NCBI GenBank assembly: GCA_022844275.1
Contig: JALHMB010000019.1
Location: forward strand, 1-35,999
Length of the DNA: 35,999 nucleotides
Origin: Hyphomicrobiaceae bacterium
GTDB lineage: Bacteria; Pseudomonadota; Alphaproteobacteria; Rhizobiales; Hyphomicrobiaceae
Reading direction: 5' to 3'
In this document: positions 290 to 8,169 of the stretch, in pieces
Layout: the number at the start of each line of letters is the position of its first letter
Numbering within the stretch: position 1 is the first letter of the stretch
Program-made: the position numbers and the translations under genes
Notes under the pieces: generated by a model
What the model was told of the DNA's origin: nothing
What the model saw: the letters and a program-made list of their open reading frames with translations, nothing else
The model's database searches: none

Positions 290-1552
290 ATGCCAAATCT
301 CGACCCGCGTGGGCGTAACATCACGCGCGCTATCAACGGCCCGGCGGCGACTTATGCCATCGAGCGCCACGATCGCCTCTATCTCGATGTCCTCGGCGGC
401 GGACGGGCGTCCTGGCGCATCCGTTATCGGCCAAAACCGAATGCCAATCAGCGTTGGTTCACGCTGTCAGACGATGCCCGCAATGCGGACTTCGAGAAGA
501 TCGCGACCAAGGCACACGACCTTCTCACAAACCTTCGCCTGCACGGCATCGATCCGCTGACCGAGCAGGAAAAGAAGGCCACGCCACAACCGACGCTGAC
601 CGAGGCCTTCAAGCTCTGGCTCGATCACACCGGCAAGCGCCGCGCAAAATCACTAAGCCCGGCCACCCGCAAGGGCTACGAAGACTTGTACGACCTGCAC
701 GTCAAAGCACATCTCGGCAAGAAGTGCTTGCAGGATCTCGACCGCAAGGCAGTCAACGAGGCTCTGACCAAGATCAAGACGGCCACAACCAACCCCGACA
801 AGAAGCATCGCGGCGTTCAGGCGACAAAGGCGTTGAAGCTCGTCTCGAGCATCTGCGAGTGGTGCATCGACCAGGAATGGATCGTGCGCAATCCTTGCCG
901 CGGTGTGGAAAAGCCCGTGCCTATCGCGAATCCCAAGGGGAAGCAGCACCGTCCGCCGACCAATCCTGAGCTGCGTCAGCTTTGGAATGACGGCCCGGAC
1001 GTCATGGCACCGGCAAAGACTCGCGTGCTGCGCCTCGCCATTCTGATCGGCCGGCGCATCAGCGAGATCGCACTGGCCAACCGCGACGACGCTAAGCTCG
1101 ACGCTACAATCCCTTGCTTGCTCATCCCGGCCGATCGCCTGGGCAACAAGCCGAAACGCGACGACGCCGTCCCATTGCCGCCGCTGGCGCTGGCAATCGT
1201 CAAGGACGCGCTCGCAACGTCACAGCTGGGCGAGCCCCTATTCGTCGGCGCAGCAACCAGATGGACGGCCTCCAAGGAACTGACCACGACGCGACGCGCC
1301 TGGAAATGGCCGGACCCGCCCGTGCGCTTCCATGATTTCCGCGGCCTCATCAACGACCAGATGGCGGCACTCGGCGTTCCCTCCGAGCTGCGCAGCCGCA
1401 CGCTACATCACACCGGCGATCTCCAGCAGCTCGCGAATACAGTCTATTCGGCGTACGATTTCCTGCCTGAGCGACTGCGTGCGCTCGAGCTTTGGGAAGC
1501 GCGACTGCTGGAGATCGTGAACGACAGAGAGCCCGTCGGAATCCGATGGTGA
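290..1552 (+). CDS. Tyrosine recombinase / island integrase (DUF4102-type)
   Basis: Cytoplasmic site-specific recombinase that would integrate and excise a phage or genomic island. The 420 residues show the usual three parts: an N-terminal arm-binding region with a DUF4102-like WRIRYRPKP strand (about 20-90), a core-binding SAM-like region (about 105-195) and a catalytic domain (about 225-400). The catalytic set is visible: Arg256 in GRRISEI, H348-x-x-R351 in FHDFRG, His373/374 in LHHTGD, and Tyr386 or Tyr389 in TVYSAYD. The length is normal for the family and no break is seen. The ATG at 290 is the first start that keeps the DUF4102 strand complete; the ribosome-binding site is a weak G-run. 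It is transcribed toward an IS110 remnant and lies at the very left edge, so the element it belongs to cannot be delimited. Confidence 0.85.
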   Translation: MPNLDPRGRNITRAINGPAATYAIERHDRLYLDVLGGGRASWRIRYRPKPNANQRWFTLSDDARNADFEKIATKAHDLLTNLRLHGIDPLTEQEKKATPQPTLTEAFKLWLDHTGKRRAKSLSPATRKGYEDLYDLHVKAHLGKKCLQDLDRKAVNEALTKIKTATTNPDKKHRGVQATKALKLVSSICEWCIDQEWIVRNPCRGVEKPVPIANPKGKQHRPPTNPELRQLWNDGPDVMAPAKTRVLRLAILIGRRISEIALANRDDAKLDATIPCLLIPADRLGNKPKRDDAVPLPPLALAIVKDALATSQLGEPLFVGAATRWTASKELTTTRRAWKWPDPPVRFHDFRGLINDQMAALGVPSELRSRTLHHTGDLQQLANTVYSAYDFLPERLRALELWEARLLEIVNDREPVGIRW

Positions 1553-2507: not shown

Positions 2508-2718
2508 ATAATGCTCGGGTCTTCCGCTTGGAACTGCATCTCGTGTTGAGGACGGTGAGGGCCAATGTACCGCGTCAAGGACCCTGTGTTTGCTATGGAT
2601 GAGAGTTCCTTCCCTGACGGCGGAAGCCGCTTGGTTGAAGTTGAAGTGCAATCACTGACTTCGGTCAGTGAATGGAGATCTGTTGCTCGCCTCCCTGCCA
2701 AGTTTCCCAACGTAGGAC

Positions 2719-2871
2719 GTTATCGGAAAGAACCGCCTCCGGTTTGTCGCGCCAGGCGATGACGCGGTCAAGCTCCCGCGCCACGCGGGCACCCGAGATC
2801 GACGTGTCGGGCACGAGAGCCAAACACTCGCGCGTGCAGTCGTCGACGATGACGAGAACGCGGAAGCGGAG
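2719..2871 (-). pseudogene. IS3-family OrfB internal fragment
   Basis: About 50 codons of an IS3-family integrase core (rve) domain: VLVIVDDCTRECLALVPD followed by SGARVARELDRVIAWR and ending at AVLSDN, where the next catalytic Asp and the expected GTE continuation are lost. The fragment is joined in frame to an IS66 TnpB fragment immediately upstream on the same strand, giving a chimeric open frame of 85 codons. Both flanks are broken, so this is debris, not a functional gene. Confidence 0.75.
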
Positions 2872-2949
2872 ACCGTCGTGCCAGAGGACCTTGATCAGGT
2901 CGCCCCGGGCGCCCCGGAACACGAAAAGATCCCCGGCGAATGGTTATGT
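2872..2949 (-). pseudogene. IS66 TnpB 3' fragment, right of the RIT insertion
   Basis: The frame reads FAGDLFVFRGARGD then LIKVLWHDG, the strongly conserved centre of IS66 TnpB. It is the direct continuation of the TnpB 5' fragment at 6374-6484, which ends in TLGRDP. The RIT element therefore separates the two parts of one tnpB gene. Beyond LIKVLWHDG the sequence jumps to an IS3 OrfB fragment, so the remaining tnpB and any tnpC of this copy are lost. Confidence 0.8.
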
Positions 2950-2965
2950 ATCGCGCCACATAACC
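2942..2965. other. Dyad at left junction of RIT element (candidate recombination core)
   Basis: Perfect 8-bp arms, GGTTATGT at 2942-2949 and ACATAACC at 2958-2965, surround the 8-bp spacer ATCGCGCC. The same spacer recurs in direct orientation at 6374-6381, 3 bp outside the right inverted repeat. An inverted pair of arms around a 6-8 bp spacer is the known form of a tyrosine-recombinase core site, so the spacer may be the crossover sequence or a target duplication. That role is inference. Confidence 0.55.
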
Positions 2966-2966
2966 C

Positions 2967-3056
2967 TTCTTATGTGTCGGCTGACGTTATGTGACGGAGG
3001 CGGCCGAAGGCCATGCGTGAACGGGCCTCGCCGGGCTTTCCCCGCCACATAATATC
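2967..3056 (+). repeat. Left 90-bp terminal inverted repeat of RIT element
   Basis: Reading 3056 to 2967 on the minus strand gives the same 90 bases as 6281-6370 on the plus strand, with no mismatch on a base-by-base comparison. It contains two copies of TTATGTG (2970-2976 and 2987-2993) and one CACATAA (3046-3052), which are likely recombinase-binding half-sites. Confidence 0.93.
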
Positions 3057-3110
3057 CCGTGCCTCTGGCGCAGCCGCAGGATCCCCTGCGGCGCGACGCA
3101 AGAGGGGCAC

Positions 3111-4349
3111 ATGCTCGAGTTCTATTTTTCGTATCGGGGGGTGCTCAAGCGCCTCCGTAGTGGGGCGCTCGGCGCCGAGATGGATCTCATCGCGGGGGAC
3201 CTGCACTCGCAAGGATACAAGCCTGCATCCACCAAGCTCTATCTGAGCCGGATTGCCCGGTTCAGCCATTTCGCTGCCGAGCGCTGCGGCTCAGAGCCGA
3301 TCAGCGCGACCATCGTCGATCGGTACCTTCTCACGCTGGGCCCCGGCTCTCCGCGGATCGCCGCAGTGACTGCGCTTCAGCACGCTCGGCGAGTGGCGCC
3401 CAACCGCTTCGTGACGGCGGTGGCCAGCGTCGTCGACGATCCAGATGCTGCTCTATTGAGCTCGTTCTCGAACTATCTGAGCAGAGTGCGTGGTCTCGAG
3501 CCGAAGTCCCGCGATGGCGCTCTCCTGGGGGCGCGGCGCTTTCTGCAATGGTTCCGCATTCGATACCCCGGCCAAGACCTCGGAACGATGAAGGCGCAGC
3601 ACGTCATTGCCGCTGTAGAGCACCAGCTATCGCTGTCCGCAGCCTCGAGCACGCGCACGGCAGCAACGTCTCATATCCGAGGGTTTCTCCGCTTTCTGCA
3701 TTGGGCCGGTCATCACCATCGGGAGCTTTCACCCGTCGTTCCAAGAACGCCCCACTGGCGGTTGGCCCATTTGCCGCCGCGTCTATCCTGGACAGAGGTT
3801 CGCCGTGCCATCGATACGATCGGCAGGGCAACGCCGATCGACGTTCGCGATCGGGCCATTCTTCTGCTGCTCGCGACGACAGGCATTCGCAATGGCGAGC
3901 TGCGCGCTCTTCGGCTCCAGGATCTCGATTGGCGAGCCGGCGAAGTCTTTATCCGGCACACGAAGGGCAAGCGCGACCGAGTGGCCCCGCTACTCGAGGA
4001 GACCGGCGCCGCGCTTGCCGACTACATCCTGAGGGCGAGACCGAAGGTCGATAGTGCGCATCTGTTCCTGACGTTCACCGCACCCATAGGGCCGATCAAG
4101 TACGCTGCGCCAGTGTCACGGATCGTGCGGAAGCGTTTGCAGTGTAGCGGGATCGAGCTTGGTCGCGTCGCCGGTGCCCATCTTCTGCGCCACAGTCTGG
4201 CAACTGAGCTTGTCGAGCAACGAAGGCCGATCAACGAGGTCGCCGATCTTCTCGGGCATCGCAGCATCAACACGACGGCGCTTTACGTGAAGGTCGCGAC
4301 CTCTCAGCTGGCTGACGTCGCGCTCCCTTTTCCGGGAGGCGCCGCATGA
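3111..4349 (+). CDS. ritA: RIT tyrosine recombinase A
   Basis: First of three tyrosine site-specific recombinases in the RIT element; together they are thought to catalyse its movement. The 412 residues include a long N-terminal DNA-binding region (about 25-205, two SAM-like parts) and a catalytic domain (about 225-395). Catalytic residues are all present: Arg260 in TTGIRNGE, Lys285 in RHTKGKRD, H357-x-x-R360 in AHLLRHSLAT, His383 in LLGHRSINT and Tyr392 in ALYVKVA. ATG at 3111 lies 55 bp inside the left inverted repeat boundary with AGAGGGG before it. The stop overlaps the ritB start by four bases (ATGA at 4346), so the genes are translationally coupled. Confidence 0.9.
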   Translation: MLEFYFSYRGVLKRLRSGALGAEMDLIAGDLHSQGYKPASTKLYLSRIARFSHFAAERCGSEPISATIVDRYLLTLGPGSPRIAAVTALQHARRVAPNRFVTAVASVVDDPDAALLSSFSNYLSRVRGLEPKSRDGALLGARRFLQWFRIRYPGQDLGTMKAQHVIAAVEHQLSLSAASSTRTAATSHIRGFLRFLHWAGHHHRELSPVVPRTPHWRLAHLPPRLSWTEVRRAIDTIGRATPIDVRDRAILLLLATTGIRNGELRALRLQDLDWRAGEVFIRHTKGKRDRVAPLLEETGAALADYILRARPKVDSAHLFLTFTAPIGPIKYAAPVSRIVRKRLQCSGIELGRVAGAHLLRHSLATELVEQRRPINEVADLLGHRSINTTALYVKVATSQLADVALPFPGGAA

Positions 4350-5278
4350 CCGCCTTCGCCACATTTCTCAGCGAGAAGATCGAACGCTACATCGAGCTGC
4401 GCCGGTCCCTCGGCTATGCCTTCGACAAGCAAGCAGGAACGCTGCGGGCGTTCGTGCATCACGTCGTGCGATCCCAGCTCGATGGACCTGCCATCCAGAC
4501 GATGGCGATCGATTTCGTCCTGTCGTTCCGCGGCGCCGCCAACAGTCCTGCCGTTCGTCACGGGGTCCTCCGCCGGTTCTACGAGTACCTCGCCCTCTAC
4601 GACGCCCGAACCGAGGCCTTGGAGCGCAAAGCGTTCCATAGGTCGAGGGCGATTCCGCCGCCGCGCATCGTGAGCGATACCGAGCTAGCGTCGCTCATTG
4701 GCGCATGCAGGCTCCTTTCGCCGAGGCTGCCTCTCGTTGGCTCCACGATGGCGACGTTGGTCGGGCTACTCGCGAGCACGGGGTTGCGATCGGGTGAAGC
4801 GATCAGGCTGGATCGCGGCGATGTCGATCTGACCCGTGGGGTCATTCTCATCCGCAAGACCAAGTTTCGTAAGGACCGCCTGGTTCCTGTTCACCCAACG
4901 ACACTGGCCGCTCTGCGCCGATACGCCCGCGAACGCGACGCGGCGTTTCCTGCGCCCGTGGACGCGGGCTTCTTTCTCAGCTCGCGAGGCTGTCGTCTCT
5001 CGACTGCCGGCTTGCAATGCAACTTCGTGAAGGCCCGCAAGCACGCCGGTCTCGACGATGGCAAGCCTCTGCGACCACACGATCTGAGGCATCGGTTCGC
5101 GGTGACCAGGCTCAGGCTCTGGCACCAGCAGCGCGCGGATGTCCAAGCGCTGCTGCCGCTCCTCGCCACTTATCTCGGCCACGCCAGCTACAGCGACACG
5201 GCGTACTACCTGACCAGTTCATCAGATCTCCTCGCCATCGCGGCCGAACGCGCCTCCATCGACGGAGGTGCAGCATGA
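4346..5278 (+). CDS. ritB: RIT tyrosine recombinase B
   Basis: Second recombinase of the trio, 310 residues. An N-terminal DNA-binding part (about 5-100) precedes the catalytic domain. Visible catalytic residues are Arg148 in STGLRSGEA, Lys173 in TKFRKDR, H245-x-x-R248 in PHDLRHRFAV, His279 in YLGHASYSDT and Tyr287 or Tyr288 in AYYLT. It starts within the ritA stop (ATGA) and ends within the ritC start (ATGA at 5275-5278), so the operon is tight. Length and motif spacing are normal; no break is seen. Its separate role from RitA and RitC is not known from sequence. Confidence 0.9.
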   Translation: MTAFATFLSEKIERYIELRRSLGYAFDKQAGTLRAFVHHVVRSQLDGPAIQTMAIDFVLSFRGAANSPAVRHGVLRRFYEYLALYDARTEALERKAFHRSRAIPPPRIVSDTELASLIGACRLLSPRLPLVGSTMATLVGLLASTGLRSGEAIRLDRGDVDLTRGVILIRKTKFRKDRLVPVHPTTLAALRRYARERDAAFPAPVDAGFFLSSRGCRLSTAGLQCNFVKARKHAGLDDGKPLRPHDLRHRFAVTRLRLWHQQRADVQALLPLLATYLGHASYSDTAYYLTSSSDLLAIAAERASIDGGAA

Positions 5279-6282
5279 GCGAGGATCTTTGTCTGGCACC
5301 GCTCCTGGAGTCATACTTCCGTCGGCGGCTGGCCAAGCAGCGTAACGCCACGCCTGCGACCATGGCCAGCTATCGCGATGCCTTGCGCATGCTGATCCTC
5401 TTTGCCGCAGGCCGATTGGGCAAGGAGCCGGTCGCGCTGACGCTCGAGGAGCTCGATCGGGACATCGTTCTCGCCTTCCTCGACGAACTCGAGGAGAAGC
5501 GGAACAACTCCGTCGCAACGCGCAATGCTCGGCTAGCCGCTGTTCGATCCTTCTTCCATCACGTCGCCGCCGCCGATCCCGCCGCCTTCGGCATCGCCCA
5601 ACGCGTTTTGGCAATCCCCACCAAGAGGGCTCACATCGAGGTGACGCACCACCTCACCAACGCCGAGGTCGAAGCCATCATCGCAACCCCTGATCAGACG
5701 ACACGCCGCGGTCGGCGCGATCGGGCTCTTCTGCTCTTCCTGGCGAGAACCGGCGCCCGCGTGTCCGAAGCGATCGGCACCAACGCAACTGATCTTCGCT
5801 TGCAGCGAGGGAGCCCGCAGGTGTTGCTTCACGGCAAGGGGCGTCGAGATCGTGTCGTTCCCATTCCTCGGGATCTGGTGCGATCACTGACTGAGCTGCT
5901 GAAGGAACGCGGGCTTGCTCATCACGAGCCGGAGCCGATCTTTGTCGGTGCCCACGGCGAGCGCCTGACGCGCTTCGGAGTGACGCACGTCGTGCGGCGA
6001 GCTGCGGCTGGAGCCAAGTCGATAGCACCGAGCTTGGACGGCAAGTCGATATCACCCCACATCTTCCGGCATTCTCTCGCCATGAAGCTCCTCCGATCGG
6101 GCGTCGATCTCCTGACGATCCAGGCCTGGCTCGGACACGCCCAGGTCGCCACAACCCACCGCTACGCCGCCGCGGACGTCGAGATGATGCGGCGCGGTCT
6201 CGTGAAGGCAGGCGTCTCGACCAACCGAAGTGCCCGCTTCCAACCGAAGGACGCTGTTCTGCGGCTACTGGAGAGCATCTGA
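5275..6282 (+). CDS. ritC: RIT tyrosine recombinase C
   Basis: Third recombinase of the trio, 335 residues from the ATG at 5275. That start is preferred over the longer upstream frame because it follows GACGGAGGTGCAGC, a good ribosome-binding site, and overlaps the ritB stop as ATGA. The XerC/D-like layout is clear: a core-binding domain (about 10-115) and a catalytic domain (about 125-310) with Arg162 in RTGARVSE, Lys188 in HGKGRRDR, H262-x-x-R265 in PHIFRHSLAM, His288 in WLGHAQVATT and Tyr297 in THRYAAAD. The TGA stop lies at the inner edge of the right inverted repeat, showing how compact the element is. Confidence 0.9.
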   Translation: MSEDLCLAPLLESYFRRRLAKQRNATPATMASYRDALRMLILFAAGRLGKEPVALTLEELDRDIVLAFLDELEEKRNNSVATRNARLAAVRSFFHHVAAADPAAFGIAQRVLAIPTKRAHIEVTHHLTNAEVEAIIATPDQTTRRGRRDRALLLFLARTGARVSEAIGTNATDLRLQRGSPQVLLHGKGRRDRVVPIPRDLVRSLTELLKERGLAHHEPEPIFVGAHGERLTRFGVTHVVRRAAAGAKSIAPSLDGKSISPHIFRHSLAMKLLRSGVDLLTIQAWLGHAQVATTHRYAAADVEMMRRGLVKAGVSTNRSARFQPKDAVLRLLESI

Positions 6283-6370
6283 TATTATGTGGCGGGGAAA
6301 GCCCGGCGAGGCCCGTTCACGCATGGCCTTCGGCCGCCTCCGTCACATAACGTCAGCCGACACATAAGAA
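6281..6370 (+). repeat. Right 90-bp terminal inverted repeat of RIT element
   Basis: Exact reverse complement of 2967-3056. It contains TTATGTG at 6285-6291 and CACATAA at 6344-6350 and 6361-6367. Three bases further out begins ATCGCGCC (6374-6381), also found at the left junction. Confidence 0.93.
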
Positions 6371-6373
6371 AGG

Positions 6374-6484
6374 ATCGCGCCCGAGCGTCTCCTGCACCTG
6401 CAGGGCGAGCCCGTTCATGCGGCGCCGCATGTCGGTGCGCCCGACCGAGAGCTACACGCGCACGCCCGACGGCACCGGAATCAT
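6374..6484 (-). pseudogene. IS66 tnpB 5' fragment interrupted by RIT element
   Basis: The ATG at 6484 overlaps the tnpA stop, as is usual in IS66 operons. Translation gives MIPVPSGVRV, a TAG stop, then LSVGRTDMRRRMNGLALQV and ETLGRDP, where the RIT element begins. The TAG stands where TnpB proteins usually have Trp, so a TGG to TAG change had disabled the gene as well. The downstream part is at 2872-2949. Confidence 0.85.
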
Positions 6485-6873
6485 CGATTCCTTAGTATGT
6501 CGAGCACGCGCTTCAAAGCACGGCCGTCGAAGCTCGAACCCACACGCACACGGCAGTCGCCTCCGACCTCGATCTCGATCGTGTCGGAATGCGCCTGCTG
6601 CGCCGACGCCGGCTTGTCCTCAAGCTCGGGCGTGATCGTCACGGGAACGAGCCCGCTCGACGTGGTTGACGATGCTGTCGAACCCGACTCATCTGCGAGC
6701 CGCCGCCAGCGGAATATCTGGTTGGCGTTGACGTCGTACTGGCGCGCCACGATCGAGACCGACGACCCAGGCAGGTACGTCGCCGCCACGATCTCGCGCT
6801 TCGGCTCCTTCGGCCAGCGCTTGTTCCGACGTCGCTTCGCGCCGTTTGTGTCCACATCCGGCATTGTGGGCAC
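6481..6873 (-). CDS. tnpA: IS66-family TnpA (OrfA) protein
   Basis: Small helix-turn-helix DNA-binding protein encoded by the first gene of IS66 elements; it is needed for transposition together with TnpB and TnpC. The 130 residues show the Lys/Arg-rich start RRRNKRWPKEPKREIVAATY, the HTH segment IVARQYDVNANQIFRWRRL (about 42-62) and the conserved C-terminal strand IEIEVGGDCRVRVGSSFDG with DILRNR near the end. Length is normal. It is the only intact gene of this copy: tnpB is cut by the RIT element and tnpC is absent. A candidate outer end, TGTTCACCGGAGGAAGAC, lies at 6942-6959. Confidence 0.85.
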   Translation of the reverse strand: MPTMPDVDTNGAKRRRNKRWPKEPKREIVAATYLPGSSVSIVARQYDVNANQIFRWRRLADESGSTASSTTSSGLVPVTITPELEDKPASAQQAHSDTIEIEVGGDCRVRVGSSFDGRALKRVLDILRNR

Positions 6874-6959
6874 TTCCTCACTCGCGTTGATCCAAGACGA
6901 GCGTCGAAGACTCGATCAGCGGCCAAGCCGCGACAAGGCGGTGTTCACCGGAGGAAGAC

Positions 6960-7335
6960 GACATTGCCGTTTCCGATCCGTTCAAACAGACGCTGCGCAA
7001 TGCCATCGCCCTCTATGCTGCGATGATCCTGGTCGTCGGACACATCAGGCGCCGCGGAACCTCCTCATGGCGACGGTCGGGCTTCTCATTGCCGTGCCGG
7101 CGCTGACGAGCGTCATCACCTTCACCACCGTCACCGGACTTGCGCTATAGTCGCCCACGCCGTGGGGTGGAGCGTGCTCGCAGTTCTTTGGCTCACACGG
7201 ACACCGATCACGGATCGCAACAAGGCGCGCTTGGTCGCCGCTGCTATCTAGGTCCTCTGCGTCACCCTCGTCGCTATCGGCTTCTTATTGTTGGCTTGAT
7301 GGGCGCCTGCCCGTTGGGCACCGGGCTCTCGTAAA
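6960..7335 (+). pseudogene. Degraded membrane-protein coding debris
   Basis: Several short hydrophobic stretches appear in shifting frames: NAIALYAAMILVVGHIR near 7000-7050, LLMATVGLLIAVPALTS near 7065-7115, then VGWSVLAVLWLTRTPITDR near 7155-7220 followed by a stop and VTLVAIGFLLLA. Together they look like one small inner-membrane protein broken by frameshifts and stops. The family is not recognised, and the segments could come from more than one gene. Confidence 0.3.
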
Positions 7336-7495
7336 TCGAACCCGTCGGTCTCGGCCCTGCGGCGCCGATCCCTGGCGCGTTGCACGCCGCGCCGATTGCG
7401 ATGGCCGCGATCCCCCGTACACTTTGAGCAGTGCTTCCGTCGTGCCCGCCGGTGCTCGATTCCCGAGCGTCGGTTGTGCGACGGAGTTGTTCGAT

Positions 7496-7618
7496 GACAG
7501 ACGCAGTACGCAGCGAACGTAACGCCGAACTCAATGACCGCCCGTACGGTGAGCGTGACTTCGGCGCGTTCGAGCTAGATGGTTCGCGGTACTTTTGGAA
7601 GATCGACTTGTATGAGAG
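7496..7618 (+). pseudogene. DUF3768-like protein, deleted internally
   Basis: The frame from the ATG at 7496 reads MTDAVRSERNAELND and then PYGERDFGAFELDGSRYFWK, which closely resembles the conserved NDPYGEHDFGSFELDGERFFWKIDYYD block of DUF3768 proteins. In intact members about 50 residues separate the two parts, so an internal deletion is likely, and the C-terminal half is replaced by unrelated sequence. DUF3768 proteins are frequent on alphaproteobacterial islands and plasmids; function unknown. A possible second N-terminal fragment is at 17966. Confidence 0.55.
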
Positions 7619-7671
7619 GGCGATTGTCAAGCACCGGCCAAGCCGGGGACGTTTCGTGGTCGATGCGAGAC

Positions 7672-8169
7672 CTACCGCTTCGGCATGACGATGAGCTCGC
7701 CAGACATCGACGGCTTGTGCGTGTCGCACACGATACCGAAGATGCCCACTTTGTTGGCGGTGAAAGTTACGCGATGAGCCTAGCCACGCCTCACTGTGAA
7801 AGTTTGGCCGAACGCCGCAATAGTCGTCGGATGCGCCGCGCCATTGATACCGACAAACTCAAGCGTTACCTCGTCCCCTTCGTTCACAATGACTTGGGAG
7901 GGCTGCCAAATGTAGGCGCTCACTTCCCAACGACGAATCTTCTCGTCGGGCTGTGTGATCACATACCCTCCGCCTAGAGGCAGCGGACCCGTTGGAAATG
8001 GTTCTTTGTCAACGGTTGTGCCGCCCTTCGGCTCAACCGCCAAGATCGTGAAGAAGCGTTTCTCCGCCCATGCCGGGCTCACCCAACCCGTGGCGCCGTT
8101 CAGGCTCGCTAGCAGGACCGCCAGGGCACAACAAAATGGCCGCTGCAACAACACACCCTTCTGAACCAT
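7672..8169 (-). pseudogene. Exported cupredoxin-like protein with in-frame TAG
   Basis: Predicted periplasmic copper-binding protein. The ATG at 8169 begins a signal peptide (hydrophobic core CALAVLLASL, cleavage after AWA). The cupredoxin fold is indicated by SQVIVNEGDEVTLEFVGING, the first ligand His113 in AAHPTT, and the ligand loop with Cys148, His151 and Met155 in VCDTHKPSM. Codon 130 is TAG, after TVRRG; the same frame then continues with AHRVTFTANKVGIF to the natural stop at 7672. The simplest reading is a CAG to TAG change. As it stands the product ends before the Cys-His-Met loop and could not bind copper in the usual way. A Fur-like palindrome lies just upstream at 8185-8205. Confidence 0.7.

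Follow-up and report, generated by a model that had tools for sequence, protein, structure and literature searches.

A Recombinase In Trio element in an IS66 tnpB gene of a Hyphomicrobiaceae bacterium probably moves together with an adjoining palindrome

The window analysed here is a stretch of 35,999 nucleotides from a Hyphomicrobiaceae bacterium (GenBank assembly GCA_022844275.1, contig JALHMB010000019.1, positions 1 to 35,999, forward strand). It harbours a Recombinase In Trio (RIT) element within the gene tnpB of an IS66 element. A first-pass annotation had described a complete RIT element with perfect 90-bp inverted ends and three coupled recombinases with all catalytic residues, and these points were borne out. 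Positions 2967-3056 and the reverse complement of 6281-6370 were identical at 90 of 90 bases, with a negligible probability of chance. The arm proper comprises 87 bp, because the outermost TTC/GAA is part of the adjoining spacers, both of which end in TTC. The ritA-side arm (2970-3056, plus strand) carries TTATGT at 2970 and 2987, spaced by 17 bp, and an inverted ACATAA at 3047-3052; the ritC-side arm (6281-6367, minus strand) is identical to it. Three tyrosine recombinase genes lie between the arms on the plus strand: ritA (3111-4349, 412 aa), ritB (4346-5278, 310 aa) and ritC (5275-6282, 335 aa). Their open reading frames (ORFs) are intact and coupled by ATGA overlaps of 4 bp each at 4346-4349 and 5275-5278. 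The products matched Phage_integrase (PF00589) with E-values of 2.4e-30, 7.7e-22 and 1.7e-34, respectively. The residues R, K, HxxR, GH and Y were found by eye in RitA, RitB and RitC; a simple search for motifs recovered HxxR and GH...Y as well. RitA has two sequential core-binding domains, with SAM-like N-terminal matches at residues 30-74 and 118-200, of which only the second exceeds the curated cut-off. RitC matched the XerD and XerC models best, yet with scores far under the Xer cut-offs.

RIT elements were described in Cupriavidus metallidurans CH34 and other bacteria as being about 3.4 kb long, with terminal inverted repeats and a row of three tyrosine recombinase genes (A, B and C) that overlap (PMC2864759, PMC3414803). 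The window element shares these traits. Its arm-to-arm length of 3398 bp with 87-bp inverted arms agrees with the terminal inverted repeats and total of about 3.5 kb that define RITs. SE elements and GInts are defined by four conserved genes including a non-recombinase, and only the three recombinase genes lie between the arms here. Other RITs of the same arrangement were found in public sequences. The window element is a complete RIT element and thus of a known kind.

Both flanks of the element are parts of a single IS66 tnpB on the minus strand, as seen in the sequence and in tblastn with TnpB proteins. The 5' part (6374-6484; tblastn residues 1-38, sense) ends in ...GRD and contains an in-frame stop. 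The 3' part (2868-2937, outer limit approximate; tblastn residues 38-104, antisense) lies on the ritA side and reads AGDLFVFRG.RGDLIKVLWHDG. The gene is interrupted at Asp-Pro codons. Just outside the ritA-side end, a 24-bp palindrome of two head-to-head half-sites, GGTTATGTATCGCGCCACATAACC, occupies 2942-2965 and is flanked by 6-bp spacers, the whole spanning 2938-2969. Two bases of its outer half deviate from the common family form GGTTATGTGGCGCGCCACATAACC. The inner spacer CCCTTC (I; 2964-2969, plus strand) separates palindrome and arm, and with its neighbours would form a crossover site of the type CACATAA-6 bp-TTATGTG. The outer spacer CCATTC (O; 2938-2943, minus strand) lies beyond the palindrome. 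By the rule derived from the empty sites of the family, it would be a foreign fingerprint carried in by the element. The target-side spacer CCTTTC (L; 6368-6373, minus strand) covers the Pro-Phe codons of tnpB, and each of the three spacers reads Pro-Phe. The first-pass annotation had placed the inverted ends correctly but had drawn the element without the adjoining palindrome; the spacers and the tnpB reading across both flanks had also been missed.

Relatives were collected by blastn against plasmids, giving 59 records of which 38 covered at least 80% of the element, and by a scan of genome contigs, giving 54 loci. At least one end was found in 49 of 68 loci and both ends in 36. An order-wide search of 397 genomes at E ≤ 1e-90 returned only the source genome of the window, and no RitB relatives were found in the viral contigs searched. 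The usual layout among the relatives is as follows: the tnpB 5' half ending in [GA]A[TC]CCNNNN, arm to arm, NNNNGG, palindrome, CCNNNN and the tnpB 3' half. The break falls at the same Pro codon, at residue 28 to 40 depending on the best-matching reference TnpB (107-118 aa). All 31 sides labelled as carrying the palindrome matched the TnpB 3' half, while 40 of 41 plain sides matched the 5' half; the remaining short flank (L060) was unmatched. One side of each kind was present in 25 loci, with the palindrome at ritA in 14 and at ritC in 11, always on the tnpB 3' side. Without two duplicates (L049 of L023, and L043 of the L042 insertion), the tally was 13 versus 10 in 23 loci. The ends of L064, L072 and L182 were labelled by hand. 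With [GA]A[TC]CC in tnpB and the palindrome on the 3' side, the window insertion fits this IS66-tnpB-targeted subfamily, as delimited in the present analysis.

Of 32 IS66-type RITs, both duplicates included, 22 reached a palindrome score of at least 9 on a single side and none did so on both, against 0.5% of 3000 control stretches. A whole-record search of 28 genomes and plasmids, picked as RIT-bearing, located the palindrome in 20 of them at 25 places, with no hit for reversed-pattern controls. An arm adjoined 23 of the 25 (18 of the 20 fetched ones and five others). The eight records without a palindrome were those of L024, L028, L029, L032, L047, L050, L053 and L073, for which inspection of the flanks and the palindrome scores likewise revealed no intact one. 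IS91-type sequence occupied the expected palindrome position in L024, L033 and L047. In these three loci, the IS91-type end lies exactly at the arm-side spacer, and in L033/L186 the palindrome remains beyond the IS91-type element.

Intact tnpB genes serve as empty sites. Eight insertions were examined in this way and five were decisive (L031, L075, L026, L027 and L046). In the case of L031 and L075, the two 150-nt flanks recur without a difference in an intact tnpB, where four bases and no palindrome lie between them. For L026, L027 and L046, tnpB copies at 86-94% identity were read as empty sites, the copy for L026 (94%) differing in length by 6 nt. The empty-site spacers TTAT, ATAT, GTTC, GTTT and GTTC equalled the target-side spacer on the tnpB 5' side in all five loci. 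Beyond the palindrome, the same loci carry GTTC, CTAT, CTAT, GTTC and GTAT, which differ from the target spacer in every case. It follows from these comparisons that the palindrome is borne by the element, that the tnpB 5' side keeps the spacer of the target and that a foreign spacer arrives on the outer side. The idea that the palindrome is a target sequence, or an unrelated repeat, beside which RITs insert conflicts with the two unchanged tnpB copies and with the attachment of nearly all palindromes in the searched records to a RIT arm; it was rejected as very improbable. Even less credible is an ordinary terminal-repeat transposon making a short target duplication. The target-side and outer spacers are equal in nine of 21 loci, as a duplication would leave them, but they differ in the other 12, including two with an identical empty site. 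The genes moreover encode tyrosine recombinases, and a one-sided palindrome has no role in a duplication scheme, so this candidate was also discarded.

Pairs of identical RITs in opposite orientation were found in nature. On one Sinorhizobium meliloti plasmid, L025 and L182 are identical over 3399 of 3399 bases and lie in opposite orientations at IS66 sites whose 5' flanks agree at 575 of 576 aligned bases. A single base makes the palindrome of this pair asymmetric, and the asymmetry is the same in the two copies in the element's own frame and thus turns with the element. In Rhizobium freirei, L042 and L075 are identical over 3169 of 3169 bases and opposite; ritA adjoins ATAT and ritC adjoins CTTT in each copy. 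In Mesorhizobium B2-7-2, L184 and L185, on contigs that hold one arm each, have inner and outer spacers GTTC/CTAG versus CTAG/GTTC and have thus exchanged them. Both orientations might also arise by inversion in place, if a one-way insertion was followed by a flip of the trio between the target-side and inner spacer sites while the palindrome stayed fixed. These two sites are mutually inverted, and such a flip is geometrically possible. A flip of the trio alone would fix the asymmetry to tnpB, and a flip of the whole unit would put the palindrome on the tnpB 5' side; a circle opened on either side of the palindrome accounts for the L025/L182 pair. In L184 and L185, the inner and outer spacers have changed places, which a flip between the target-side and inner sites would not bring about. 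Inversion in place was rejected on the evidence of the pairs and is judged improbable.

Taken as a whole, the best explanation, which we hold to be likely, is that the mobile unit consists of ritABC, the two arms and the palindrome. The window element would then belong, as a complete RIT, to a subfamily that targets the Asp/Asn-Pro codons of IS66 tnpB and moves via a palindrome-jointed circle. The layout, target, orientation rule, empty sites, spacer polarity and co-rotation of the palindrome were read from the sequences, whereas the circle, the order of strands, the fate of the donor copy and the pairing of Rit proteins with half-sites are matters of inference. The RIT would leave, or be copied, as a circle; the integrated copies fit copy-out and cut-out alike. 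In the circle, the two arms would be joined through the palindrome as arm-CACATAA-6-TTATGTGGCGC.GCGCCACATAA-6-TTATGTG-arm, which creates two equivalent, inverted crossover sites (half-site, CCNNNN, half-site), or two dif-like sites around one palindrome. In tnpB, CCNNNN would be the partner with which the recombinases cross one site of the joint. Either site of a symmetric joint could serve, so that both directions of the trio are allowed, whereas the palindrome would in each case come to lie towards the tnpB 3' half. On the 5' side the target would retain its own spacer, and that of the circle would end beyond the palindrome. A record of earlier insertion sites would thus be kept in the inner and outer spacers. 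One Rit protein might hold the palindrome-type half-sites and another the half-site at the arm end. At hand-picked sites in 16 RITs, the palindrome half-sites were nearer to the second arm half-site in nine, to the first in three (window included) and tied in four, which weakly suggests such a division of labour.

The spacer codons fit copying from tnpB genes visited earlier. A hand-made, sequence-checked table of 25 loci gave a Pro codon and then a codon for F, Y, H, M or L in all 25 inner spacers and in 24 of the outer ones. The residue set used in this test, which also includes Q, makes up 23% of codons and was chosen after the spacers had been seen. The table left out repeats, L029 (decayed) and L067 (palindromes on both sides). 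With L029, which fails twice, and L067, which passes twice, the counts become 26 of 27 and 25 of 27.

The crossover site has known counterparts. A dif site consists of inverted half-sites around a 6-bp spacer, about 11-6-11. XerCD/dif resembles a single RIT crossover site, of which the RIT would have two back to back around the palindrome. We know of no phage, integrative and conjugative element, SE or Tn554 joint that resembles a symmetric joint with two usable crossover sites. Tn554 encodes TnpA, TnpB and the non-recombinase TnpC and is not known to have terminal inverted repeats, unlike RITs. Tn554 and its relatives do resemble the five decisive relatives of the window element in having the target spacer at one junction and a foreign spacer at the other. 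SE elements and GInts share several tyrosine recombinases with RITs, and SE elements also the spacer polarity of those five; they differ by four conserved genes, frequent cargo and distinct left and right ends, whereas RITs have three genes and would have a symmetric joint that permits either orientation. A rival for the route rather than the circle is a conservative cut-out and paste-in of the kind used by Tn916-like elements, in which the spacer is mixed (heteroduplex), in place of the strand-biased route proposed for SE elements. Short spacers and a foreign spacer at one junction are generally common to both routes. Random resolution of the mixed spacer should sometimes place the target spacer on the outer side, and it lay on the target side in all five decisive cases of the eight, a small sample; the conservative route is considered unlikely, though clearly less so than the rivals above. 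In a comparison of 2023, SE elements have a 6-bp fingerprint at one junction and the target's own bases at the other, and Tn554 takes along to the new site 6 bp that come from a single side of its donor site (PMC10214605).

Several observations weigh against the palindrome-jointed circle. None of 21 matching plasmid records covered 80% of the 152-nt joint, and no circle or tandem joint was present in the fetched loci. Ten of the 32 IS66-type and 5 of the 14 distant RITs score under the palindrome threshold of 9, and the window, with 7.0, is one of these. Two of the 25 palindromes in the whole-record search have no adjoining arm. Among the empty sites, that of L034 was only consistent, by residue type, and those of L035 and the window gave no decision on polarity; in the window, the target-side TTTC and outer ATTC differ, and four tnpB copies of the same family carry TTTT, CTTC, GTTC and GTTC. 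The nine loci with equal spacers are uninformative on polarity. Co-rotation of the palindrome depends on one base in one pair of copies. An enzyme preference for certain spacers could mimic part of the codon pattern, for which the residue set was post hoc; one outer spacer, CTAG, is a stop, and the decayed L029 reads Asp and Lys. Four loci depart from the layout and are read as probable later rearrangements: L032, L050 and L073 each lie between two tnpB 5' halves, and L067 lies between two 3' halves. The loci are related, so that the counts are not independent.

Further features of these exceptional loci were recorded. The halves in L032, L050, L073 and L067 belong in part to separate IS66 elements, which looks like the outcome of recombination between RIT copies that produced chimeric IS66. 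L067 has a second, imperfect palindrome on its other side, with a score of 7.4. One palindrome without an arm lies beyond the IS91-type insert beside a RIT (L168/L186; L186 2710-2733). The other, at 3910-3933 of L183 (= L181), has no arm by pattern, belongs to the same genome as L067 and is possibly the remnant of a RIT or next to a diverged one.

Distant RITs, with RitB 31-40% identical, were found in the class and phylum of the window and in metagenome bins labelled Aminicenantes and Armatimonadetes. Many of them carry a two-half-site palindrome beside one end. An inverted repeat was found in 20 of 33 distant loci, of which 16 were scored, two of them being too short; L115 and L118 (contig ends), L120 (repeat not at the trio) and L133 (complex) were left out. 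The palindrome threshold was reached on one side in nine of the 14 testable RITs, on both sides in none and on neither in five, with 0.5% for controls. To name targets, 10 of the 27 flank peptides were picked by eye and scanned with Pfam. The IS66 transposase gene tnpC was interrupted or flanking in L119, L127, L134 and on one side of L139. L126 targets istB of IS21, L129 a reverse transcriptase gene, as does L128 by eye, and L137 a tyrosine recombinase gene broken at the SPHxxR motif. L122 adjoins a gene for a solute-binding protein and L136 one for a DUF3489 protein. The target of distant RITs is thus often mobile DNA, not demonstrably in each case, given L122, L136 and several unnamed targets. 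With somewhat less confidence than for the window element, we think it rather likely that all RITs move via palindromic two-site circles, with integration free in orientation yet fixed to the target, and with spacers that record the last sites. Subfamilies would each be aimed at a few conserved codons, frequently within mobile-element genes (IS66 tnpB and tnpC, IS21 istB, group II-type reverse transcriptase and even a RitC-like recombinase), which would turn many RITs into site-specific parasites of mobile DNA. On the other side of L139, a reading resembling IstA was noted by eye, with no Pfam match. In L028 (pNGR234a, about 5600-8112), a truncated ritC is directly followed by a second recombinase trio; a similarity to the L137 arm was noted there by eye.

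RITs occur in many bacterial groups, and the layout supplies a concrete reaction for them by specifying the DNA that is joined, the place, the orientations and the side of the spacer. It also sorts the half-sites into classes to which the three Rit enzymes could be assigned. The need for three recombinases is called hard to understand (PMC3414803). Individual RITs lying within a gene of IS66 or of other mobile elements are already on record (PMC2864759, PMC3414803). In a table of 2023, the RIT entries for target specificity, empty site and movement are all NT, for not formally tested (PMC10214605). The consulted portions of the RIT literature, to which the main RIT paper, Ricker et al. 2013, does not belong, make no mention of a one-sided palindrome as part of the mobile unit, an orientation rule, target codons or an empty site.

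The first-pass annotation had also taken the identical ends and intact genes, amid decayed surroundings, as signs of a recent, possibly active insertion. The window element is the only copy found in its own genome, and four other genomes of the genus gave one weak match only (205 nt, 66%). Relatives hold identical copies at different sites. The arms are identical in relatives too, for example over 86 of 86 bases in L025, so arm identity is no clock and the argument for recency was dropped; the arms of L042 agree at only 79 of 87 bases. The decay applies to tnpB, with its in-frame stop and a 3' part that continues in frame into an rve fragment (85-aa ORF, 2668-2922). It does not apply to an IS66 tnpA-like ORF (6481-6873, minus strand, 130 aa, HTH_Tnp_1), a 420-aa ORF and a nearby OmpA-family ORF of 662 aa, all of which are open. 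The run of the tnpB 3' part into rve, the integrase core (2665-2922, minus strand), indicates that the host IS66 was itself rearranged. The open 420-aa ORF (290-1552, plus strand) had no Phage_integrase match at E 1e-3; it is integrase-like, with weak arm-binding and SAM-like matches below the curated cut-offs.

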